From the NCBI GenBank assembly GCA_018433675.1, contig JAHDQS010000011.1, forward strand, positions 1 through 64,000: a stretch of 64,000 bases of DNA, given 5' to 3'. Numbering within the stretch: position 1 is the stretch's first letter; every line of letters starts with the position of its first letter. The translations under genes were made by a program, and so were the position numbers. Positions 53,091 through 64,000 of this stretch are shown here, in pieces. The notes under the pieces are model-generated. The model did no database searches. It had not been told where the DNA came from and saw only the letters and a program-made list of their open reading frames with translations. The stretch is from Clostridia bacterium (GTDB lineage Bacteria; Bacillota; Peptococcia; DRI-13; SM3-B62).

Positions 53091-53107
53091 CACTAGTAAG
53101 AGTTGCC

Positions 53108-53140
53108 GAAAGCCCTGCTATCAGGGCTTTCGCATTGTTT
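53108..53140 (+). terminator. Terminator of the RNase J gene
   Basis: GAAAGCCCT and AGGGCTTTC pair around GCTATC; GCATTGTTTTTT follows. The stop of the convergent regulator gene lies in it. Confidence 0.8.
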
Positions 53141-54233
53141 TTTCGATTTTGTCTAATTCATACTTAATTTTTTCTTGGACATATTGATGATACTCAAGGT
53201 GCTTGTCACGCTGCAATCTGCCAATCAAAATGTATGGGGGAATACCCTGTCCGGAGCAGAAATGCTGGATTCGTGGCAGTGAATAGTCGCCGATTTTTAC
53301 AAAAGCATCATACATTTCTTGAGCGATTAGAGTGTTGGCTGCGAATTCATTTGCTCGATCTTCCAATTCATTTTTTGTATCCTCATAGTCAATTAGTCGA
53401 TCCTCTATATCGCCATTAATAATGTGCCCAATTTCATGAAAAAGCGTAAACCAAAAGACATCCGCAAACTTGCGCCTTAATGTCATAATCAAATTGAGGG
53501 TACCATCACGATTTTTCTTAATGACACCTTGAACAGGTGCCCCGGTAAAATGTTTGACTATGGCGAATTTTATCCCGCACTCGGCAAAAAACCCCTTCAA
53601 CTTTTGATAGATACTATCCACATCCTCAAAAGTAAGCCCTCGTATTAATTGCAGTTTGGTCTTAAGTCGGTCAATATCAAGCTTTTGGTTAACTTGCTGA
53701 CTATTTGTAATAAGGTCGCAAAGCCTAAGCCAAGTAAACAGAACATATGGATCTACATTATCCGCTACCGCCAATCGATAAGCCCCGATCTGTGATATTT
53801 CCGGAATTCGTACCAGGCTACTGACATTTAATAGCTTTCGCCACTCTATCACAAGCATCGAACCCTGGACATCAGGGTTAAGCAGAAGAATATCCTTAGC
53901 ATATTTCATAATTCTTTTTAGTTTATGCAAAATCTCTAATTCTTCGCTTGATATCCGGTTAATCTCTTCAAAATCAGCTAGTTCTTTTTCATAGTTTGCC
54001 TGAAGGTTAATCCAAAAGCTTGCATCAATTCCCAAGGCATACTCAAGCTTTTTAGCAAAAGAAACAGAGATTGGTTTTTGACAATTAACGATGCCACTAA
54101 CATGTGGTTCTTTAACATCGGTTCTTATTGCTAATTCGCGTTGTGTCATGCCCCTATCTTCCAGCATTTCTTTCAAAGTTTCTCCCGGATGAATAATATA
54201 CTCACGGGATAAGCCATTCGTTCTTTGTGCCAT
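53121..54233 (-). CDS. HigA-type regulator fused to an ImmA/IrrE metallopeptidase domain
   Basis: A 370-residue protein. Residues 10-95 are an HigA/XRE helix-turn-helix (REYIIHPGETLKEMLEDRGMTQRELAIRTDVKEPHVSGIVN). Residues about 225-330 are an ImmA/IrrE peptidase with the zinc motif TLFHEIGHIIN. The HigA family fusion is known as an addiction-module antidote type; a toxin gene is not next to it. The operator pair 54283-54315 is upstream. Confidence 0.88.
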   Translation of the reverse strand: MAQRTNGLSREYIIHPGETLKEMLEDRGMTQRELAIRTDVKEPHVSGIVNCQKPISVSFAKKLEYALGIDASFWINLQANYEKELADFEEINRISSEELEILHKLKRIMKYAKDILLLNPDVQGSMLVIEWRKLLNVSSLVRIPEISQIGAYRLAVADNVDPYVLFTWLRLCDLITNSQQVNQKLDIDRLKTKLQLIRGLTFEDVDSIYQKLKGFFAECGIKFAIVKHFTGAPVQGVIKKNRDGTLNLIMTLRRKFADVFWFTLFHEIGHIINGDIEDRLIDYEDTKNELEDRANEFAANTLIAQEMYDAFVKIGDYSLPRIQHFCSGQGIPPYILIGRLQRDKHLEYHQYVQEKIKYELDKIEKTMRKP

Positions 54234-54282
54234 GATAATCCATCACCCCCTTAATAAGCACCTGTTATGACCACCGCCAAAC

Positions 54283-54315
54283 TTAACCCCATGGTTAACT
54301 TAACTATTCGGTTAA
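54283..54315 (-). promoter_or_regulatory. Tandem operator dyads before the HigA-ImmA gene
   Basis: TTAACCCCATGGTTAA (54283-54298) and TTAACTATTCGGTTAA (54300-54315) share the pattern TTAACNNNNNGGTTAA and follow each other with one base between. They are likely binding sites for the HigA-type domain. The rest of 54234-54566 shows no gene. Confidence 0.65.
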
Positions 54316-54566
54316 TGTTATTATATACTATTCGTTGCACACATGCAAGGCATATATGTCCCCGATAAATCTTTTGTTGACAAATCTTTGAATAACCTAC
54401 GTTTTCTTTTACATAATAATGAGGCGTCCACTCTGTTTACAAGCCCAATAACCTGCAGTCATACCATGTCATGAGAAAATAAGTCATATCCTTATAAACA
54501 AACGGGGGATACTGGTGGATGAATGTACACCGCTTCTTATGAAAGCTCTAACCTTAAACAAAAAAA

Positions 54567-54586
54567 AGAGGGGCCGCAGCCCCTCT
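54567..54586 (-). terminator. Terminator of the phage tail and lysis operon
   Basis: GAGGGGC and GCCCCTC pair around four bases; the minus strand continues with a T run longer than 8. It closes the long minus-strand operon that enters the window at its right edge. Confidence 0.85.
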
Positions 54587-55133
54587 AACCTATTGCACGT
54601 CTGATCATTGCCCAGACCTCTTTTCTCGTTGCCGGCCGATCCGGGTCTGAGCCGTCGCTAATACCTTGGGCAACAGCCCAGGCCCTGTCCTCAGCAAAAA
54701 TATCCACCTCCGTCACAGGCCCCACTTCATTTTTGATTCCAAGATAACGGGCGATATCAACATGACTGAATGGATCGTAATATTCTTTTTCAAGCTCAAT
54801 ATGTAAATGGCTATCAGTAACATTCCCGGAGCGACCTTCCACGCCGATGCCCTGACCTTCTTCCACCGCGTCTCCTACGCCGACAAACCTTTTTGATAAA
54901 TGAGCATAAATACAATATAGGCCATCTTCTTGTTCAATTACAATATATTCACCCCAGTTTCCATATGACTTGCTGCGGATCACTCTGCCCCTTCGGATGG
55001 CCACAACTGTTTTATCTCCATCCGAAACGATATCAAGACCGGAATGCACCCCAGCTACATAACTTTGCTTAGAATTCTTCACGCCATAGACTTGAGTTAT
55101 GCGAAGTCTCGTTGTATCAGCGTAAGGGAGCAT
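54585..55133 (-). CDS. M23 family peptidoglycan endopeptidase (endolysin)
   Basis: A 182-residue protein with no signal peptide. The M23 motifs are HSGLDIVSDGDKTV (H and D ligands), GEYIVIEQEDGLYCIYAHLSK and SHLHIELEKEY. The C-terminus (about 135-182: FAEDRAWAVAQGISDGSDPDRPATRKEVWAMI) resembles a repeat used for wall binding in phage lysins. It is released through the holin encoded just upstream. Confidence 0.87.
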   Translation of the reverse strand: MLPYADTTRLRITQVYGVKNSKQSYVAGVHSGLDIVSDGDKTVVAIRRGRVIRSKSYGNWGEYIVIEQEDGLYCIYAHLSKRFVGVGDAVEEGQGIGVEGRSGNVTDSHLHIELEKEYYDPFSHVDIARYLGIKNEVGPVTEVDIFAEDRAWAVAQGISDGSDPDRPATRKEVWAMIRRAIG

Positions 55134-55136
55134 AGC

Positions 55137-55439
55137 CTACGCCTCCTTCTGTCGTTCTTTCTCTAAGATAGCTTTGTCAGACATTTTCCCACTAGTAGCC
55201 GCCACAAGGAAACCATTAAACAAAGCCAACACAACAGCTGACCACGTCAGAGCTTGTCCTTGCGCAGCAGTGGTAGCCAAAAGCACTATAAAGCCGATCA
55301 ATACCGCATATATATCTGTGCCCAGCACCTGAGGCCAAAATGACTCAACGAGCCGCTTAGTATAAGCTACGATTAGATAAGTGAGAGCTGCAGCTCCGGC
55401 TAATGTCCCCAACCCGTCCCATGTAAACAGATTATCCAT
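55137..55439 (-). CDS. Phage holin-like protein
   Basis: A 100-residue protein with three hydrophobic segments (about residues 9-25, 42-60, 64-83) and a charged C-terminus (EKERQKEA). Its position between the XhlA-like gene and the endolysin gene supports a holin role. The family is not certain by eye. Confidence 0.7.
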   Translation of the reverse strand: MDNLFTWDGLGTLAGAAALTYLIVAYTKRLVESFWPQVLGTDIYAVLIGFIVLLATTAAQGQALTWSAVVLALFNGFLVAATSGKMSDKAILEKERQKEA

Positions 55440-55706
55440 TTATAACACCCCCAATTTAACCAAACTGAACAAGCAGCTGAAAATAGCAATTAACCATCCT
55501 CCCCACTCTCTGATGGCTCTGCCGACAGAACTTCTACCCATTGCTTTCAATTCGATGGCATCCAGTCTTTTTCGCAAGCTGTTATATTTCGAGACGATTT
55601 CCCGGGTCTGTTTTAGTTCTTGAGACATTGTTTGAATGTCTATTCTTAATTCTTGAAACATCTCGAATAGATCTTTATTTGTGTACCATTGTTCTTTTTC
55701 AGTCAA
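55440..55706 (-). CDS. XhlA-like lysis accessory protein
   Basis: An 88-residue protein: a coiled-coil-like start (DLFEMFQELRIDIQTMSQEL and LRKRLDAIELKA) and one C-terminal span (WGGWLIAIFSCLFSLVKLGVL). This is the layout of haemolysin XhlA. The start is TTG at 55706 behind AGGTGGG. The stop is next to the holin start. Confidence 0.75.
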   Translation of the reverse strand: MTEKEQWYTNKDLFEMFQELRIDIQTMSQELKQTREIVSKYNSLRKRLDAIELKAMGRSSVGRAIREWGGWLIAIFSCLFSLVKLGVL

Positions 55707-55797
55707 ATGTTATCCCACCTTTTTGGCCTATTCCGCAGAACCGGAAATGAATGAATCATAACAAGTATAAAGGACTCCACGCTTTCTCTTCCGGGCG

Positions 55798-55833
55798 TAA
55801 CAAAACCGCCTCCCATGGCGGTTTTGTTACGCA
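55798..55833. terminator. Hairpin behind fibre cassette B
   Basis: GTAACAAAACCGCC and GGCGGTTTTGTTAC pair perfectly around TCCCAT. A related but decayed hairpin (ACCGCC/GGCGGT with GTTACACATTATTATCC) lies at 57846-57880, behind cassette A. Confidence 0.6.
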
Positions 55834-55841
55834 TTTTTATC

Positions 55842-55949
55842 CTATTGCGCAACTAAGTTAGCTTGAACTTCTGCCTGTATCGCTGAGTCCTTTATACTGT
55901 CAATGGTAATAACTCCCAACTCTATCAACCTGATTAAATCATCAATCAT
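55842..55949 (-). CDS. Small XkdX-type phage protein
   Basis: A 35-residue frame (MIDDLIRLIELGVITIDS then IKDSAIQAEVQ). Very short XkdX-like proteins with this start are common between fibre and lysis genes in PBSX-like clusters. Too short for confident assignment, but its position, start and clean stop support it. Confidence 0.6.
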   Translation of the reverse strand: MIDDLIRLIELGVITIDSIKDSAIQAEVQANLVAQ

Positions 55950-55950
55950 G

Positions 55951-56172
55951 CTAAATAATCCCCCTGTTCTTATAATATATATAGTTAATCTTGTCCGCTA
56001 TTGTCGGTTCAGTCGGTAAAGCAGGTTCTGGAGTAATAAATATTCCATCAGTTTGCCTTATTTGCCCACATTCTCCCGTTGTGCTTTCAATCTCTCCTTC
56101 CAATATTTCGGCACCTAGACGTACAGATATAACTTTAGCATCTTCATCTAAACAGATAAATCTTTTTACCAT
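55951..56172 (-). CDS. Small phage tail-region protein
   Basis: A 73-residue protein (MVKRFICLDEDAKVISVRLG at the start) with a beta-rich pattern and a Pro-rich middle (TPEPALPTEPT). GGGGGGTG precedes the ATG. It lies in cassette B between the fibre-tip gene and the XkdX-type gene. The family is not recognised. Confidence 0.65.
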   Translation of the reverse strand: MVKRFICLDEDAKVISVRLGAEILEGEIESTTGECGQIRQTDGIFITPEPALPTEPTIADKINYIYYKNRGII

Positions 56173-56196
56173 ATTAACACCCCCCTCTATATTGTT

Positions 56197-56742
56197 TTAT
56201 GGTAATTCAATAACGGTATAGCCTAGGACGCTAGTATGTCCATTATTATTATCCGAAATCATTGCCACTATTTCCGAACTGCTGTTAAATTTTAAATACG
56301 GGTTTCCCGCCACCCATGCCGCGGCAGACGCCCACGGTGGAACTGACTTCCATCCAGAAAAGAATAGAAATGATTTGTCTAAATCAACAGGCTGTATGTT
56401 TACGGTTGCACCAGCTATACCAGCTGTTATTGTTCCTTCTTGGCGACTTTTGACTTGTGCAAATTCAATCACCGCTAATGAAATAGACCCACCTAATGCT
56501 CGATAATCAAGTGCAATATGCGTGGAGTCTTGGAGATAGGCTCGTTTAAATTGTGCGTCAATATCTCCACTTGAACCAGGTACGGTTTGACCAAGATACA
56601 CCAATGCTGTTTTGCTTATATCAACTGTATCAATCTCAGTTGATGCAGAGCCAGTAAACACATATTGAATCGATTTTATTATATCGCTTGTGCCAAATAT
56701 ACTTGCTTTACTAAGATAATTCTGACTTAGCAATCCTTCCAT
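56197..56742 (-). CDS. Phage tail-fibre region protein
   Basis: A 181-residue protein of cassette B (MEGLLSQNYLSKASIFGTSD at the start), beta-rich with VIEFAQVKSRQEGTITAGIAG and ending GHTSVLGYTVIELP. It may form the fibre tip or receptor-binding part; this is inferred from position. ATG 56742 follows CGAGGTGA. The longer frame from 56769 would overlap the upstream gene. Confidence 0.65.
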   Translation of the reverse strand: MEGLLSQNYLSKASIFGTSDIIKSIQYVFTGSASTEIDTVDISKTALVYLGQTVPGSSGDIDAQFKRAYLQDSTHIALDYRALGGSISLAVIEFAQVKSRQEGTITAGIAGATVNIQPVDLDKSFLFFSGWKSVPPWASAAAWVAGNPYLKFNSSSEIVAMISDNNNGHTSVLGYTVIELP

Positions 56743-57062
56743 TACGAAGTCACCTCGTTTACTCCCCATATATAGTAATCCATATCGGATGCGACCTCGC
56801 CTTTAACCTTAATTGTTTTGCCTGTAGTGACGGGTACATTGAGGTCAGAACGAATAAGCGAATCACCAGTCGGAATCGCCTTTGAATAGGGTAAAATACG
56901 CTTATCATCAATCAGTAATTCGGCTTTTTTATCGGCGGCGTTTGCGTTAGATATACAAAAACCCCTCATTATAAAGGTTGTTGAGGCTGCTACCGTTGCC
57001 GCCATTGCACTAGAGGTTGTCAATGTACCGCTGTAAACCTGATCTGAATATGTTTTAGCCAT
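56742..57062 (-). CDS. Phage tail-region protein
   Basis: A 106-residue protein (MAKTYSDQVYSGTLTTSSAM at the start; RSDLNVPVTTGKTIKVKG later) with a beta-sandwich pattern. GGGGGGTGAGA precedes the ATG, and its end overlaps the start of the next gene (56742). Function unknown; cassette B. Confidence 0.65.
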   Translation of the reverse strand: MAKTYSDQVYSGTLTTSSAMAATVAASTTFIMRGFCISNANAADKKAELLIDDKRILPYSKAIPTGDSLIRSDLNVPVTTGKTIKVKGEVASDMDYYIWGVNEVTS

Positions 57063-57549
57063 AGTATCTCACCCCCCGTAAATCACAAAATAGCTTATTC
57101 GCATAATCGGTCAAATGTGTAGCAACCGTATCATATTCCGCGACCCCGCCTACTGCACCTTTTTGGCTTGATGGAATAGCGACATCCGCCTTTGCCCCTT
57201 GAGCAGCGGTTGCATAAGCTGAACTATTCGTGTAGGCCGCACTTCCTAAGCCAAGGGTTGCTTTTACTTCTGCCAAGGTTTTCTTGACGAATGTTCCGGC
57301 ACCTGAAGCTACTATGAAATCATTTACTGCTGTTGCTAATGTGTGAGATACGCTGGTGTTTTTTGCTGCCGCTTCAGCCGCATCGGCTTTGGCTTGCGCC
57401 CCCGTCGGTGTTTCTTTTGTGGCAATCGCATCGGCATTATTCTTTAAAGCTTGATCTATCAGATCCATATTCCCGTTTTGATCATCTTTGGTAAAATTCT
57501 CATTGCCTAAAGGTTTCTTCAGGCTATAGTTTGTTGTGTAATCAGGCAT
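57055..57549 (-). CDS. Tail fibre protein, cassette B copy
   Basis: A 164-residue fibre. The start MPDYTTNYSLKKPLGNENFT is shared with the cassette A fibre, and both continue nearly identically to AEYDTVATHL (about residue 148). The last residues (TDYANKLFCDLRGVRYYG) differ. ATG 57549 follows AGGAGGAG. The shared region includes an Ala-rich helical stalk (KADAAEAAAKN). Confidence 0.85.
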   Translation of the reverse strand: MPDYTTNYSLKKPLGNENFTKDDQNGNMDLIDQALKNNADAIATKETPTGAQAKADAAEAAAKNTSVSHTLATAVNDFIVASGAGTFVKKTLAEVKATLGLGSAAYTNSSAYATAAQGAKADVAIPSSQKGAVGGVAEYDTVATHLTDYANKLFCDLRGVRYYG

Positions 57550-58194
57550 TGAACTCCTCCTCTCTGAATTGGTCATAAGTAAAATGTTGCTAAGCAAACG
57601 TATCATCATTTGTCATCCTCAACGTCATCAATAATGGTAAAATGTTCTTGATACGTTCAGATTGTCGTCGGTGATGTTTGTCTATTAAGGCTTATATCTT
57701 CGTCCTTGTTATTTTGGAATAAAACTTGAAAGTACTATCCTCATATCTTATACAGATCTAATTCGAAGAAAATCACTTAGTCAAGCTGTAATAGCATTTG
57801 TCTGTGTTATGTCTCAATAAAATTCTCCTTTCAGGCATGAAAATACCGCCTCACATGGCGGTTTGTTACACATTATTATCCTATTACGAACTAATCTCTG
57901 TTTTATATGGCTCAGGCACATCGGCAATTAACCTAAGCCCCTTATTACCATATACCTATACAGTCGCAATTTCCTTTCGTCCATCTACAGCACCTCCGCT
58001 TCTTCGAGTAGCGACAAAGCATCGTCCAATAGCCCTTGCAATTCTATTGCTTCGGGATTGTCTATATACTCATAATAGACATTTTCCGTTGCTTTATCTG
58101 CTCTGATTTGTGCATACTTACCGCTTGAGCTTTTTGAGCTTCGGTAATGGTGCTGCCGTCATAAACAATATTGCCTTGTGCAAATATATAATCA
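57550..58194 (-). pseudogene. Gap between fibre cassettes with decayed tail accessory genes
   Basis: No intact gene. Just upstream of the cassette B fibre (57550-57600) is a copy of the 3' end of the YmfQ-type gene (LSNILL then TNSERRSS in a shifted frame). At about 58000-58190 a minus-strand frame reads DYIFAQGNIVYDGSTITEAQKAQA and, after a shift, ATENVYYEYIDNPEAIELQGLLDD. At about 57895-57998 MDERKLRLYRYMVIRG with a shift to RLIADVPEPYKTEI is a decayed CD1375-like gene. The hairpin near 57846-57880 corresponds to the one after cassette B. Confidence 0.65.
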
Positions 58195-59163
58195 TTATTC
58201 TATCCTCCTGTATGCGCTTAGACTATATACTTGTTTTTGCAGTTTTTTAATAAGGTGAGTCGTTTGCAATCCTATATAAATATAATCATTATCTACTTCA
58301 ATTCCAACTGGATTTCCTTCTAAAAATGTAGATTTTGCTGTATTTACAAAAATACTTTTTAGTATTTCGAACGTAATGTAAGAAGTTGATGAAAGAGTAG
58401 CATAAAGATAATTATCATCCTGCTTTATATCCATCACATTAGATGGACACTCTATTTCTCTGTATTTAAGCATACTGTCCGTATGAATATCATAAATTTT
58501 AGCAGATATTCCTCCATAAAGATGTGTTCCATCAATAACCATTGAACTAACAACCGCATCATATTTGATTGTTTCAGCCTTCTTAGATAAATTTGATTTA
58601 TTAAGTTGAAATACTTTTAAAATAGTATTTCCTGATACATAAACATAATCTGTATCTTGGGCTATGGATATAATATACCCACCATACGCGGCTGATTCAG
58701 CCACCTTAGATAAATCTGTTTTATCAAGTTTGACTATTTTTTCAGTTGCAGGTATTGCCGCATAAATGTAATTAGTATCTTGTACTAATTTACTAACATA
58801 TCCGCCCAAGTCAGGTGATTCAGTCACCTTAGATAAATCTGTTTTATCAAGTTTAAATACTTTATAAGTACCAGCCAATCCTATATACATATAATTTTCA
58901 TCAATTACCCCTGCTTGTATATTTCCACCAAAATCAGGTGATTCAGTCACCTTAGATAAATCTGTTTTATCAAGTTTAAATACTTTGTGAATAGGATTTC
59001 CTCCTACATAAAGATAATAATCATCAACATTTATTACCCGAGGGTCTCCATCATAGACTTCTGATGTCATTATACTAGGAATAATAGATGACTTTTCAAA
59101 AATACCTTTATAATAATAATCATCAATCCCCAAAGTCGTTCCCAAATATATCTTATCACTCAC
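58195..59163 (-). CDS. Beta-propeller tail protein with repeats
   Basis: A 322-residue protein with about six repeats of roughly 44 residues. The core KVFKLDKTDLSKVTESPD recurs nearly unchanged at about residues 58, 102 and 146, with looser copies later; each repeat also has a DxNYxYxG-type strand. This fits a six-bladed propeller with possible receptor or glycan binding. The start is GTG 59163, directly behind the stop of fibre A. It is in cassette A only. Confidence 0.75.
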   Translation of the reverse strand: MSDKIYLGTTLGIDDYYYKGIFEKSSIIPSIMTSEVYDGDPRVINVDDYYLYVGGNPIHKVFKLDKTDLSKVTESPDFGGNIQAGVIDENYMYIGLAGTYKVFKLDKTDLSKVTESPDLGGYVSKLVQDTNYIYAAIPATEKIVKLDKTDLSKVAESAAYGGYIISIAQDTDYVYVSGNTILKVFQLNKSNLSKKAETIKYDAVVSSMVIDGTHLYGGISAKIYDIHTDSMLKYREIECPSNVMDIKQDDNYLYATLSSTSYITFEILKSIFVNTAKSTFLEGNPVGIEVDNDYIYIGLQTTHLIKKLQKQVYSLSAYRRIE

Positions 59164-59775
59164 CTATACCACCACCCTTTCCAAAAATACGATACCGTCT
59201 TCCATGCCCCATTCCCATTTATCCGCTGTGACGGTATCTACGATTTGAGTTTGTGCAGATATTACGCCGCCAGTTGCGGTAATGGTTTCACCATCAACTT
59301 TGACGTGTCCAAATTGGGACGAGGACGTTTTTTCTAACAAATGTGCCGCAACCGTATCATATTCCGCCACCCCGCCTACTGCACCTTTCTCACTTGATAG
59401 AATAGCAGCATCCGCCTTTGCCCCTTGGGCGGCGGTTGCATAAGCTGAACTATTCGTGTAGGCCGCACTTCCTAAGCCAAGGGTTGATTTTACTTCTGCC
59501 AAGGTTTTCTTGACGAATGTTCCGGCACCTGAAGCTACTATGAAATCATTTACTGCTGTTGCTAATGTGTGAGATATGCTGGCGTTTTTTGCGGCCGCTT
59601 CAGCCGCATCGGCCTTGGCCTGCGCCCCTGCCGGAGTTTCCTTTGTGACAATCGCATCGGCATTATTCTTTAAAGCTTGATCGATCAGATCCATATTCCC
59701 GTTTTGATCATCTTTGGTAAAATTCTCATTGCCTAAAGGTTTCTTCAGGCTATAGTTTGTTGTGTAATTAGGCAT
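59164..59775 (-). CDS. Tail fibre protein, cassette A copy
   Basis: A 203-residue fibre. Residues 1-148 are nearly identical to the cassette B fibre. The remaining 55 residues (LLEKTSSSQFGHVKVDGETIT, ending EDGIVFLERVVV) are unique. TSSSQFGHVKVD is a motif seen at the ends of many phage tail-fibre stalks. It starts inside the 3' end of the YmfQ-type gene (8-base overlap). Confidence 0.85.
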   Translation of the reverse strand: MPNYTTNYSLKKPLGNENFTKDDQNGNMDLIDQALKNNADAIVTKETPAGAQAKADAAEAAAKNASISHTLATAVNDFIVASGAGTFVKKTLAEVKSTLGLGSAAYTNSSAYATAAQGAKADAAILSSEKGAVGGVAEYDTVAAHLLEKTSSSQFGHVKVDGETITATGGVISAQTQIVDTVTADKWEWGMEDGIVFLERVVV

Positions 59776-60307
59776 CTAGCTCCTCCTCCCTGAGCTGGTT
59801 ATAAGTAAAATTTGCTAAGTAATCATATGTGTAAGCGCTTAAATCGTTATAGGTGTTAAAGGTATACTCAAAAGTGTATTGCAGGTGTGCAGGCTTGATC
59901 TCTTCTATCGTCAAGGTCAAATCTGCCATATTCGCCGGTATACCTAAGGTTCCAATAAATCTTATTTTAAAGCTATAGTTAGCCGGGTCTTCAATGACTT
60001 CTACATCGCCGTTACTGTATGACTTGGCGGTGTCTACAATCATCTGTTTTGTAACTGTACCGATTCCTCTTATCTTTGCTCGAATGCGCTCACGCCTAAA
60101 TTCGGTTGACTTGGTTACATCCACTTCAAGCCCATATATCTCTTCATACCGGCTTAATATGTCTGTGGCCGTGTTCACAAAACATTGATCGATGGTTTCA
60201 TTGGAAGCTGTTGCAAGATCATTAATCTCTGTTGACAATATTTCCTGCAATTCCTCCATGGTGATATTACCTTTGTAATACAGAGGCAATATATCTATCA
60301 GGTTCAT
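59768..60307 (-). CDS. YmfQ/DUF2313-type phage tail protein
   Basis: A 179-residue protein. SRYEEIYGLEVDVTKSTEFRRERIRAKIRGIGTVTKQMI is the conserved start of the DUF2313 family. It acts between the baseplate J protein and fibres. Its 3' end is partly duplicated before the cassette B fibre. Confidence 0.85.
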   Translation of the reverse strand: MNLIDILPLYYKGNITMEELQEILSTEINDLATASNETIDQCFVNTATDILSRYEEIYGLEVDVTKSTEFRRERIRAKIRGIGTVTKQMIVDTAKSYSNGDVEVIEDPANYSFKIRFIGTLGIPANMADLTLTIEEIKPAHLQYTFEYTFNTYNDLSAYTYDYLANFTYNQLREEELDA

Positions 60308-60308
60308 C

Positions 60309-61328
60309 TTACGACACCTCCGTCAATGTAACCGTACCAATAATCGGCATCTCTTCAGCACCGATCACAATATTTGCAACATCACCGTTCACCAGCAGAG
60401 TATCGTAGTCTTGTATGCCTTCTGTCGCCAATAAAAGACTGCCGATTTGGGCATAACTGACGCTATACACATCAAAGACCGTATTTTTAAGGTATTCGGT
60501 TACCGCCGCTACAAAAGAGGTCTGTACATCCGCAAGCAATCGTGTCCCATCAAGTGTCACATTTGCAGTAATGTTTATCGTTACGCCGGTTGGACTGTCT
60601 ACCGTTACAGACGCACCGATGGGGCGCACTGTTTCGATATAATCATATACTGTTGCCTCCAATGTTTCATCGATGGCCATCTCGCTGTCTACTATTAGCA
60701 CTTTGACAGTCCCCGCACCATCCCAGAGAGGAAACACCTTGGCATTCCCAACACCGGCCACTTCAAGGGCCCATTCTTTGTAATTACCGGCATTCCCGCT
60801 TGTGGAAACCGTTTGTATCTGGGAATAGAAACGAGCCCTTAAATTATCGTCTGTTTCCTCATCTTCCCCGCTGGTTATTATGTCAGTTAATGTAGCTGTA
60901 ACGCCGCTGACATTACTTATGTTTTCAAGAGCCCCGTTGTAGGTGTTCCCTATGCTGCCGATTTGTTCACATGTTGCGCTATAGACATTCTCAGACAATA
61001 GTTCAGTGATTTCATATGTTACACCGGATATCCCCCATCTGGTACCAATATCAACAGCTCCGGTCGTTTCTATTTTCCTGACGGCATAAGTAGCTTCTTT
61101 CCTTGTGATACCGTAATCACCTACAACCCTGTCAAGATATTCACCTACGGCAGTATCACCAAATACCAGGTCCAGAAAATTGTTAAGTTGAAAGTAGGTT
61201 TCGGCCAAATAATAGGCACAGGGCGCAAGGGCATCGTAAATCACACTGCCTTCGCGCTTGTCTACATCATTTGTTACTCTAATGAGCATGTCTGTAAGAA
61301 TATTATTGTATGTCATGTTTTCGAACAT
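60309..61328 (-). CDS. Baseplate J/gp47 family protein (XkdT-type)
   Basis: A 339-residue protein of contractile-tail baseplates. GEYLDRVVGDYGITRKEATYAVRKIE, SGEDEETDDNLRARFYSQIQTVSTSGNAGNYKEWALEVAGVGNAKVFPLWDGAGTVKVLIV and RPIGASVTVDSPT are typical. RBS AAGGAGG. It follows the XkdS-type gene and precedes the YmfQ-type gene. Confidence 0.93.
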   Translation of the reverse strand: MFENMTYNNILTDMLIRVTNDVDKREGSVIYDALAPCAYYLAETYFQLNNFLDLVFGDTAVGEYLDRVVGDYGITRKEATYAVRKIETTGAVDIGTRWGISGVTYEITELLSENVYSATCEQIGSIGNTYNGALENISNVSGVTATLTDIITSGEDEETDDNLRARFYSQIQTVSTSGNAGNYKEWALEVAGVGNAKVFPLWDGAGTVKVLIVDSEMAIDETLEATVYDYIETVRPIGASVTVDSPTGVTINITANVTLDGTRLLADVQTSFVAAVTEYLKNTVFDVYSVSYAQIGSLLLATEGIQDYDTLLVNGDVANIVIGAEEMPIIGTVTLTEVS

Positions 61329-61724
61329 CTAAACATTCACCTCCTTGCTGATTGTGGTTTCTCCGTAAATGCTGGTAACATCAAAGACACAAGACAAATT
61401 ATCTCCGGATACGTCAAATATAAAATTATCCACGCTTTTTATTCTGCTGTCTTGTAACAAGCATTCCCGGATCCGCCTTTTCAGCTCTACTTTTACATAG
61501 GCTATTTCTTTGCCAATCAAACTTTCAAGCTCAATGCCATAAGAAAAGCTATATACCGGATACTCATACTTTTCAGTATTAAGCACTTTGTATATAGCCT
61601 GTTGCAAGGCCTCAAGCCCATCCACTTTACCTTGTATCTTGTTATCTGCTATTTTATACGTCGTGTTGGTTTCTTCCCTCTCCAAGATTATTAAATCCGC
61701 AGGTATAGATGCAATTGGATTCAT
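61329..61724 (-). CDS. DUF2634 phage protein (XkdS-type)
   Basis: A 131-residue baseplate-associated protein: VDGLEALQQAIYKVLNTEKYEYPVYSFSYGIELESLIGKE is the DUF2634 signature. It corresponds to gp25-like sheath initiators in position. It directly precedes the baseplate J gene. Confidence 0.88.
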   Translation of the reverse strand: MNPIASIPADLIILEREETNTTYKIADNKIQGKVDGLEALQQAIYKVLNTEKYEYPVYSFSYGIELESLIGKEIAYVKVELKRRIRECLLQDSRIKSVDNFIFDVSGDNLSCVFDVTSIYGETTISKEVNV

Positions 61725-62035
61725 GAGCTCACATCCTCTACAATGTATTCGTTCGATATGCCGTTAAGGGATAAGGTTACTGTGCTTCCTTTCGCTATGA
61801 ATTGCCTGTCGATTATCTCAACGATATAAAACTCTTGACCGCCTAGATTACGGAACAACCTCACCTTATCACCCGCAACGATATGATCCTTCATATTTCC
61901 CTTAACAAGCTCATTGGGAACGGTTAACCTATCGGATATTTTTATCCCGCTGCTTTCCACCGTACCAATCATCAGACAGGAAAGCTTGAGGTTGTCTAAA
62001 TAGTTTTGAACGATTTTCTTAATCTCGCTTATCAT
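61721..62035 (-). CDS. DUF2577 phage protein (XkdR-type)
   Basis: A 104-residue protein: GTVESSGIKISDRLTVPNELV and GDKVRLFRNLGGQEFYIVEIID match the DUF2577 pattern. It overlaps its neighbours by 4 bases on both sides. Confidence 0.87.
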   Translation of the reverse strand: MISEIKKIVQNYLDNLKLSCLMIGTVESSGIKISDRLTVPNELVKGNMKDHIVAGDKVRLFRNLGGQEFYIVEIIDRQFIAKGSTVTLSLNGISNEYIVEDVSS

Positions 62036-62976
62036 ACAAACACCTCTAAGCTCATCGTATGAACCGGCAGGTATTTATGGGTAACAGATTTAACAATCAG
62101 CTTTTTATTCAAACTAATATCTGCTATCGAACCATAAAAACTATTACCGGCCCTAATTCTTACATCTCCCAGACATTCCAGGGTCAAGGTTTCTGTTTCA
62201 TTGTGATACTTATTCAACAAATCATCAGCTCTGGTCTTGGCCTGCGTAGCATTAGCTTTTTTATCCAATACTTCAAAGTGCTGTAACAATCCATATGTTT
62301 TGATAGAAGCATCATCCTTTGCGATATAGCTTTCTCTTTTCCCGGTTTTCTCGTTATCAACGGCAATTTTGATATGATTGTAAAAATCCTCATCAATTGA
62401 TTTCTCGTGCTCATAGCCATAGCATAGGCTCTTATCCCCCAAGACAAGGTCAAGTTGTAGCTCCTCGATATCCCTTAAGGTTATAGCCCCAAACTCATCC
62501 CGCAAGGCGTATTTCTTTTTTTTGGCAACCAATGTATCGACTATTGCGGCATAGATGATATCCAACCAAGTTTTATCATCATGGATAGACACGGGCAGCA
62601 CATAGCCTGTATCTGCAACCGCCCCTCGATTTAGGTTAAAATAGTTACACATCTTATTGACTAGAGTCGTGACGGTATCTCCATCGGCAACAATTGTATC
62701 CTTAGCCTTGCAATACCGGAGCTGATCGTAAGCTACTACAGAGGATTCTTTCCCCTTTCCGGTATTAAACTTAAACACATGCCCGTCAAAAGTTTTATCA
62801 TCATCATATTTGAACTTTACGTTACTGCCGTTTTTAAGCTCCAGGTCCTTCTTGATATATGAAAACTCCAGTTTACTGCAACCTTCATTAAGAGCATCCT
62901 TATAAGATACATTAGTAACCAGTTCACTGATTTCATAGACCTTCCCATCCACTTGTACTGTAAATTCCATGTTCAT
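62032..62976 (-). CDS. XkdQ-type tail hub protein
   Basis: A 314-residue protein similar to XkdQ/late control D hub proteins: KLEFSYIKKDLELKNGSNV, GHVFKFNTGKGKESSVVAYDQLRYCKAKDT, and ATQAKTRADDLLNKYHNETETLTLECLGD near the end. It forms the spike-binding hub below the tail tube. RBS AGGAGAG. Confidence 0.9.
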   Translation of the reverse strand: MNMEFTVQVDGKVYEISELVTNVSYKDALNEGCSKLEFSYIKKDLELKNGSNVKFKYDDDKTFDGHVFKFNTGKGKESSVVAYDQLRYCKAKDTIVADGDTVTTLVNKMCNYFNLNRGAVADTGYVLPVSIHDDKTWLDIIYAAIVDTLVAKKKKYALRDEFGAITLRDIEELQLDLVLGDKSLCYGYEHEKSIDEDFYNHIKIAVDNEKTGKRESYIAKDDASIKTYGLLQHFEVLDKKANATQAKTRADDLLNKYHNETETLTLECLGDVRIRAGNSFYGSIADISLNKKLIVKSVTHKYLPVHTMSLEVFV

Positions 62977-62987
62977 ACCAATCTCTC

Positions 62988-63665
62988 CTATACCGGAATT
63001 GTTAAGACCTGTCCGGGAAAAATCAAAGACGGGTTTTTTATTTTGTCTTTATTGGCGTTGAATATCTTGGTATATTTCGAACCGTCTCCATAGTGAGCTT
63101 TTGCTATCTTCCACAGACTGTCCCCGGAAACCACCGTGTACGTCCCTGTGGCTTTGGGATTGACCGCAGCACTATCAGTAACCTTGGAGACTGTGGCTGT
63201 TACGGATGTTGCTGTTTTCGTAATATCTAAATCCCGTCCAACACCATACTCTTTATATTCGACCAGTTTGAAAGAAACATACTTATCCCCTTCTTCGCCG
63301 GCCCTCTCGGTAATACCAAGGTCCTCAATCAGCACTAGCGTATTGATTTCATCGCTAATACCATTATTTGTGGCAATAAAGCGAACCGGTGTTAAATCTT
63401 CCCGCCATTTTTGAAACAAATTGAGATAATAATCTGCATTTCGGAAACCCCCGGGGGTTTCCACATAATGCAAAATCTTGTGGGGGAACTCGCATTCAAA
63501 GCTATATTCTCTTAATTCCAGACGTGTTGGTATAGCTACCTGTCCTGATTTCAAGACTTCATATTTTTCCACGGCTAAGGGAGAAGATATCTCAACTTGT
63601 TCCGGGTTAGTAGGAAGCCGATACGTTTTATTATCATAGTCAAAAAATATCGCATAACTGTTCAT
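62988..63665 (-). CDS. XkdP-type protein with LysM domain
   Basis: A 225-residue protein. Residues about 1-140 are the XkdP N-terminal part (EYSFECEFPHKILHYVETPGGF). Residues about 175-225 are a LysM domain (TYTVVSGDSLWKIAKAHYGDGSKY, ending PGQVLTIPV). It is thought to connect tape measure and hub. ATG 63665 follows GGGAG. Confidence 0.93.
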   Translation of the reverse strand: MNSYAIFFDYDNKTYRLPTNPEQVEISSPLAVEKYEVLKSGQVAIPTRLELREYSFECEFPHKILHYVETPGGFRNADYYLNLFQKWREDLTPVRFIATNNGISDEINTLVLIEDLGITERAGEEGDKYVSFKLVEYKEYGVGRDLDITKTATSVTATVSKVTDSAAVNPKATGTYTVVSGDSLWKIAKAHYGDGSKYTKIFNANKDKIKNPSLIFPGQVLTIPV

Positions 63666-63667
63666 TT

Positions 63668-64000
63668 TTAATCATAACTCCCTTCCGCGGCCACAGCGAT
63701 TTCCTCTTGAAGTATCCTCTGGATCCTGCCCGCAACCTTATCGGCATCAGCTTCTTTATGTACATCACCAAAAGATACCGATATGTTGGGGGATAAAGTA
63801 GCAGTACTAAATTTATTAACATAGTCTCTTTCCGCAACATCTCGAAGATATTGCAAATCCTCATCCGGCATTGCTACATCAAGCGATCCGTTGTTTCCTG
63901 TTCCTTGTACAGCCATCGGATTGCCGGTCGTACCTAGTCCGTCATCGGGAAACTGTTCCACCAAAGAACCTGATGCACCGGCTATAGAGTTGTATGCTTT
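63668..64000 (-). CDS. Phage tape measure protein, C-terminal end (partial)
   Basis: The frame stays open to the window edge. The visible part reads IAGASGSLVEQFPDDGLG, then AERDYVNKFSTATLSPNISVSF and ends AVAAEGSYD, as in the C-terminus of tape measure proteins of PBSX-like phages, whose gene always precedes the XkdP gene. Most of the protein is beyond the right edge. Confidence 0.75.
   Translation of the reverse strand, partial: KAYNSIAGASGSLVEQFPDDGLGTTGNPMAVQGTGNNGSLDVAMPDEDLQYLRDVAERDYVNKFSTATLSPNISVSFGDVHKEADADKVAGRIQRILQEEIAVAAEGSYD

Follow-up and report, generated by a model that had tools for sequence, protein, structure and literature searches.

A headless contractile-tail island of a Clostridia bacterium with two fibre cassettes in direct tandem

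Introduction

Headless phage-like contractile tails are particles that normally serve to kill rival bacteria. We analysed a locus that, judged by its genes, is of this kind, in a stretch of 64,000 nucleotides (nt) from a Clostridia bacterium (GenBank assembly GCA_018433675.1, contig JAHDQS010000011.1, positions 1 to 64,000 of the forward strand; here denoted the window). The island carries two complete fibre cassettes, A and B, placed head to tail. Our preferred reading, to which we give a probability of about 0.58, is that this is an R-type tailocin island in which the shared fibre starts dock on one baseplate, the unrelated distal proteins widen the killing spectrum, and the second allele was added by recombination.

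Several described systems resemble this locus in part. For the R-tailocin of Pseudomonas chlororaphis, PMC12090994 relates from Dorosky et al. 2018 (also cited in PMC13195805) that three fibre genes are built into distinct particles with a wider spectrum. The present locus likewise has several fibre genes per contractile-tail cluster, counted from genes alone as two fibre starts. Unlike P. chlororaphis, a Gram-negative bacterium of the rhizosphere, the genome studied here yielded no LpxC, which suggests a cell without lipopolysaccharide; its tail is of the Xkd type with an unrelated layout, and its two whole modules stand in direct tandem and share the fibre start. The diffocin of Clostridioides difficile is, like the present tail, of a contractile headless type from Bacillota, and its receptor-binding gene lies behind the baseplate attachment gene and is followed by two short chaperone-like genes; adding two small genes behind the receptor-binding gene raised the activity of a modified diffocin (PMC4453579). 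There, one receptor-binding protein of ~1,700 residues is used, in contrast to the two short multi-protein fibre cassettes found here.

Carotovoricin Er and Mu-type loci, as cited from Nguyen et al. 2001 in PMC12090994 and PMC13195805, have invertible tail fibres. They share with our locus two alternative distal fibre parts on a constant start, but their arrangement is inverted and flipped by an invertase, whereas the repeats described below are direct and the island holds no unassigned open reading frame (ORF) of invertase size. In PBSX/Xkd-type tails of Bacillus and Clostridium relatives, the XkdN-, YqbQ-, XkdP-, XkdX- and YmfQ-type genes stand in the same order as here; unlike those loci, the present one has no head genes at all.

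According to a 2024 review, tailocin clusters usually have a single fibre, multi-fibre clusters are a trait of Gram-negative rhizosphere bacteria, and it is an open question why bacteria do not target more rivals (PMC12090994). Multi-fibre tailocins are already known; the tandem whole-module form in an Xkd-type tail adds a new form to them. Two whole fibre modules in a genome without a detected LpxC, together with dispersed modules that share a box in related genomes, make that question testable: which fibres load, whether together or apart, and what each one contributes to the killing range.

Two fibre starts in a long direct repeat

An earlier note on this DNA had claimed about 148 nearly identical residues between the two fibres, and a duplication reaching upstream into the 3' end of the YmfQ-type gene and downstream to similar hairpins. 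Both observations were borne out. The two copies form a direct repeat of 492 nt with 93% identity.

59338 to 59828, minus strand: direct repeat copy A, covering fibre codons 1-146 and the YmfQ 3' end
57113 to 57604, minus strand: direct repeat copy B, with a YmfQ remnant that carries a 1-nt indel
59164 to 59775, minus strand: fibre A, 203 amino acids (aa); phrog_28171 E 1e-6 and tail-protein PHROGs, fibre-start profile E 3.5e-25
57055 to 57549, minus strand: fibre B, 164 aa; phrog_28171 E 2e-7, fibre-start profile E 2.9e-25
59768 to 60307, minus strand: YmfQ-type baseplate gene (Phage_Mu_Gp48, tail protein); PF10076 E 2e-30, phrog_521 E 4e-52

The coding part of the repeat comprises 438 nt with 24 mismatches, leaving 136 of 146 residues identical; beyond the start codon of the fibre, the repeat takes in the final ~55 nt of the YmfQ-type gene. 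A further repeat of 74 nt, 82% identical, lies at the hairpin (terminator) region that closes each cassette. Otherwise the cassettes share nothing, the distal genes being unrelated at the DNA level. The only inverted pairs present are 20 nt long and 80% identical. A DNA search and a fibre-start profile each found only these two matching places in the 3.0-Mb genome.

Divergence within the shared fibre part amounted to 0.15 at synonymous sites (dS) and 0.03 at nonsynonymous sites (dN), with 14 silent-site differences; the resulting dN/dS of 0.20 indicates that the shared part is under purifying selection. Mismatches between the copies were spread unevenly (P 0.02 with six bins, P 0.09 for the longest identical run), an unevenness too weak for us to claim gene conversion between them.

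A tandem of fibre starts is exceptional. We examined 52 viral contigs that encode a YmfQ protein 46-73% identical to the one described here, followed by at least 2.5 kb of downstream sequence. A fibre start was detectable in 50 of them, and each of the 50 had exactly one. In a search of 50 relatives, pairs of paralogous ORFs downstream of YmfQ did occur in six, none of them involving a second fibre start. Scans of the viral contigs with the 322-aa and 190-aa distal proteins (see below) returned no relatives, and one scan of genome contigs matched nothing but a low-complexity stretch of the fibre, and that over short lengths.

Anatomy of the two cassettes

Each cassette has the order of a whole module. 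In the related contig L116, which shows the usual order, the YmfQ gene is followed by a single long fibre, two small genes of 63 and 39 aa (the latter XkdX-like), an XhlA-type gene and a lysin. Judged by this canonical order of fibre, small gene, XkdX-like gene and XhlA, we take each cassette to be a whole module.

58195 to 59163, minus strand: cassette A distal protein, 322 aa, with a GTG start directly after the fibre A stop
57985 to 58193, minus strand: cassette A small gene 1, ~70 aa, frameshifted, the reading shifting between frames
57884 to 57984, minus strand: cassette A small gene 2, ~32 aa, frameshifted, in the position of the XkdX-like gene of cassette B
57845 to 57862, minus strand: weak terminator-like hairpin after A, with a 6-bp stem followed by ATTTTC, z -0.8
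57605 to 57822, strand not assigned: spacer between the cassettes, 218 bp, without similarity to the other flank or to any other place in the genome
56742 to 57062, minus strand: cassette B protein 2, 106 aa, an ORF only (phrog_1276 E 0.04)
56197 to 56769, minus strand: cassette B protein 3, 190 aa, with a distant relative (32%) in genome G420
55951 to 56172, minus strand: cassette B small gene 1, 73 aa, taken as chaperone-like from its position, which is that of the 63-aa gene of L116; by eye the two also have similar C-termini
55842 to 55949, minus strand: cassette B small gene 2, 35 aa, XkdX-like, 56% over 32 aa to the L116 gene (E 8e-6)
55795 to 55832, minus strand: strong terminator after B, a perfect 16-bp stem, -28.7 kcal/mol, z -5.6

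Cassette B is intact. The relative of its 190-aa protein in G420 is encoded directly behind a fibre-start gene and ahead of lysis genes, and the 190-aa protein is likely the distal receptor-binding part. Cassette A is the one that adjoins YmfQ in the operon. The reading frames of its fibre and its 322-aa protein are uninterrupted, while its 3' end looks decayed, with both small chaperone-like genes frameshifted and the terminator weak. The end genes of cassette A are broken and therefore the two sets are not equally intact.

The 322-aa gene has a G+C content of 30.5% versus 41% for the locus and contains four repeats of 123 nt (41 aa) at 58552-59027 (repeat family D2, spacing 123 nt). Its product gave no family match, and it may be propeller-like, a suggestion that comes from the repeats only, as AlphaFold2 run without an alignment reached a predicted local distance difference test score (pLDDT) of 35, too poor to judge the fold. 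The 190-aa protein scored 31 in the same way, and with models of this quality the beta-rich label that the cassette B proteins had been given was not confirmed. The earlier statement that the distal genes differ fully holds for their DNA, whereas the accompanying inventory lacked the XkdX-like 35-aa ORF, the two frameshifted genes and the 218-bp spacer.

A contractile-tail island without head genes

The cassettes lie within a 17.9-kb island at 53092-70982 of the 80.7-kb contig, flanked by RNase J and a radical-SAM gene. These two flanking genes are adjacent in the congener G001, with 134 bp between them, which gives an empty site. From 54585 to 70898 the gene content runs through the lysis block, fibre cassettes, YmfQ, Baseplate_J, wedge, YqbQ-like and LysM-bearing XkdP-like genes, and on through the tape measure, XkdN-like chaperone, tube, sheath, tail terminator and late regulator to repressor-type helix-turn-helix (HTH) genes. 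Contractile-tail families were recognized in one cluster (PF04984/PF17482 sheath, PF09393 tube, phrog_1068 tape measure, PF04865 baseplate). The island has its own lysis and regulator genes, namely an M23 peptidase, an HTH repressor and a late regulator with a strong match to phrog_36 (E 2e-26) and a weak one to the RinA family (TIGR01636 E 2e-4, below the cut-off); the holin was assigned by eye only.

No head, portal, terminase or integrase gene was found in the island, and the larger ORFs between 53.1 and 71.0 kb are all tail, lysis or regulatory genes. Of the terminase, portal and capsid families, only Terminase_6N was searched for genome-wide, and it was absent. Because head genes are missing and the site is empty in the congener G001, we assign the locus, from its genes, to the headless contractile-tail islands of the R-type tailocin kind and not to the phages. 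The earlier note had spoken of phage host range; the property at stake is instead the killing spectrum of a tailocin-type particle.

53092 to 64000, strand not assigned: the part of the headless contractile-tail island inside the window, continuing to 70982 on the contig
54585 to 55706, minus strand: lysis block, with an XhlA-type 88-aa ORF (55440-55706), a holin-like ORF (55137-55439) and an M23 peptidase (54585-55133)
60309 to 64000, minus strand: baseplate genes, comprising Baseplate_J, a GpW-type wedge subunit, a small ORF, YqbQ-like and LysM-bearing XkdP-like genes and the start of the tape-measure gene

In the lysis block the M23 peptidase matched PF01551 (E 3.5e-21), and the XhlA-type and holin-like ORFs were assigned by position and by eye from their sequence. 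Three side observations concern the island and its site. The empty site of G001 (L262, C18:15584-15717) contains a short piece like the guaA 3' end (RAINTIDAMTAS..), possibly the scar of another insertion. A RelBE-like toxin-antitoxin pair, named from its sequence, sits between the late regulator and repressor genes (L012 14779-15397, contig 68778-69396). HTH and IrrE/ImmA-type proteins were seen by eye at both island ends, at 53121-54233 of the window and 70177-70898 of the contig.

A candidate late-activator box ahead of fibre B

At the 3' end of the late-regulator gene, ahead of the tail operon, lies an element (68266-68282) consisting of ATGATACGAAATGATAC followed after 12 nt by TATTAT. 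A similar box precedes fibre B.

57600 to 57616, minus strand: candidate late-activator box ATGACAAATGATGATAC, 12/14 to the tail-operon box, with no good -10 behind it

Placed immediately ahead of fibre B and on the right strand, it ranks second among the matches in the 80.7-kb contig, behind the tail-operon site. The box was first spotted as an 11-nt match to the tail-operon region, so that its significance is partly post hoc, and genome-wide, boxes of this quality were not significantly more frequent than the control (25 versus 16 sites at no more than two mismatches). We therefore regard it as a candidate that is only suggestive. In a general sigma-70 scan, promoter-like sites were no more numerous than in shuffled sequence (18 versus 16.4).

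How the two cassettes may be used and how they arose

In our preferred reading, the ~146 residues with which both fibres begin most likely attach them to one and the same place on the baseplate, at the YmfQ/gp48 level. The targets would be bound by the unrelated distal proteins, which are the 322-aa protein of cassette A and, in cassette B, those of 106 and 190 aa. Induction would lead the RinA-type late regulator to switch on the tail operon, whose late promoter would reach cassette A; cassette B could be transcribed either by read-through past the weak hairpin that ends cassette A or from a late promoter of its own at the candidate box. Fibres A and B would then both load on the common baseplate, yielding particles with one fibre, the other or a mixture, and the result would be a wider killing spectrum against more kinds of targets. 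Widening of the target range is the likeliest use of the two cassettes. Cassette A, its small chaperone-like genes lost, may rely on those of B or be on the way out.

In two genomes of the same order, G013 and G011 (see below), a single box goes with several fibre modules and one tail operon, which speaks for this reading. Other points weigh against it: both small genes of cassette A carry frameshifts, and cassette A may work poorly since, by analogy, such genes raised diffocin activity; the box before fibre B lacks a convincing -10; and the dN/dS value cannot show whether both copies were selected after coming together. The frameshifts, together with the weak terminator, also fit the notion that a new fibre module was inserted and only one set is used while the other decays, A being the likelier relic in view of its degraded end genes and terminator. 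The foreign G+C of the cassette A distal gene agrees with this, as does the indel in the YmfQ remnant before fibre B. Yet nothing interrupts the reading frames of fibre A and the 322-aa protein, A is the cassette next to YmfQ in the operon, and dN/dS in the shared part is 0.20, so that we consider a relic unlikely, though an explanation still to be reckoned with.

The earlier interpretation of two complete fibre cassettes on one tail stands, but not the simple duplication from which they were thought to derive. Repetition of both module ends, the YmfQ end with the fibre start and the terminator, is what a plain tandem copy of one module with later replacement of its distal part would leave. 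Such a copy, however, would be expected to place the YmfQ end next to the sequence that follows terminator B; what lies between terminator A and the YmfQ remnant is a stretch of 218 bp matching neither YmfQ nor the sequence downstream of terminator B. Moreover, all distal and small genes differ, and nothing of a copied module is left between its ends, which makes a plain duplication distinctly improbable. We infer that the second allele most likely joined by recombination at the conserved fibre start and YmfQ end, rather than by local copying and divergence, because of the unrelated spacer, the differing distal and small genes, the low G+C of the A distal gene and the 14 silent differences. 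The dS and dN of the fibres fit two alleles brought together.

RecA recombination can use direct repeats as long as this one, and the pair might accordingly be a store of specificities, off or on, in which recombination would exchange or remove one of the distal sets; G013 likewise has fibre modules in tandem whose starts are repeated, and a fibre without the common start. Exchange between direct repeats, however, would delete the A distal part and not switch reversibly, and the island has no invertase gene. We give this explanation only a small chance, and the earlier idea of switching by exchange was not supported. A live prophage tail with two receptor-binding sets for host range, finally, would agree with the phage type of the tail genes and with the full prophages that have the same baseplate genes (G002). 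It is refuted by the lack of head, portal, terminase and integrase genes between the flanking host genes unless head genes elsewhere act in trans, and its probability is minimal.

Dispersed fibre modules in related genomes

Single-fibre genomes are usual in the order (G002, G005), whereas the fibre-start profile detected six starts in G013 and three in G011. In both, the tail operon runs from YmfQ to holin and lysin without a fibre gene, and the fibre modules lie outside it, on contigs C30 (two), C4, C13 and C37 of G013 and C64, C1 and C11 of G011. The repeated starts of the C30 pair are 92% identical over 241 nt, and a fibre without the common start accompanies them. The headless tail operons and the fibre modules taken together are at C30:3593-13505, C30:23893-32907, C4:97180, C13:834-1670 and C37:75220 in G013 (L225, L218, L014, L263, L264, L015) and on C53, C64, C1 and C11 in G011 (L226, L219, L019, L265, L266).

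Each of these fibre modules is preceded by the 17-bp box ATGTCAACCAATGTCAC, or a near match, plus a -10, and the same box stands at the 3' end of the late-regulator gene, ahead of the tail operon, where the element at 68266-68282 is its counterpart in the genome studied here. Genome-wide, G013 had 9 sites with the box against 1 in the control, and G011 had 3 against 0; a TA...T hexamer lay exactly 12 nt behind it in 12 of 12 distinct sites, against a background frequency of 1.5%. The excess over control and the fixed spacing of the hexamer give strong grounds for a predicted common late promoter of the tail operon and the fibre modules. One box, in G013:C12, precedes a kelch gene that we left out of the fibre count, its neighbours being a MerR gene and a MucBP domain.

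Tentatively, and at slightly less than even odds, we suggest that this bacterial order has a distributed tailocin: a headless tail operon with fibre modules as separate transcription units tied by one late-activator box, the scattered modules numbering at least five in G013 and three in G011. The tandem pair of the window would be a compact two-module form, cassette B having its own, partly decayed box. We found no description of dispersed fibre modules under one box in the literature searched, which is not proof of absence; they are a more novel lead than the tandem form.

The fibre gene without the common start in G013 (L014 13377-14795, C30:28376-29794) is 90% identical in its middle, over 329 nt, to the neighbouring complete fibre, and is possibly a silent store of distal parts. 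A 294-aa protein (MPIVNGLFYSG...) is encoded behind fibre modules in both G013 (L263 3785-4669) and G011 (L265 124-1008); it has its own box in G013, and its PHROG matches are unknown phage proteins. In another genome (G004 C81, L016), Baseplate_J and YmfQ-type genes are present as two sets that differ in their fibres and are no more than about 9 kb apart.

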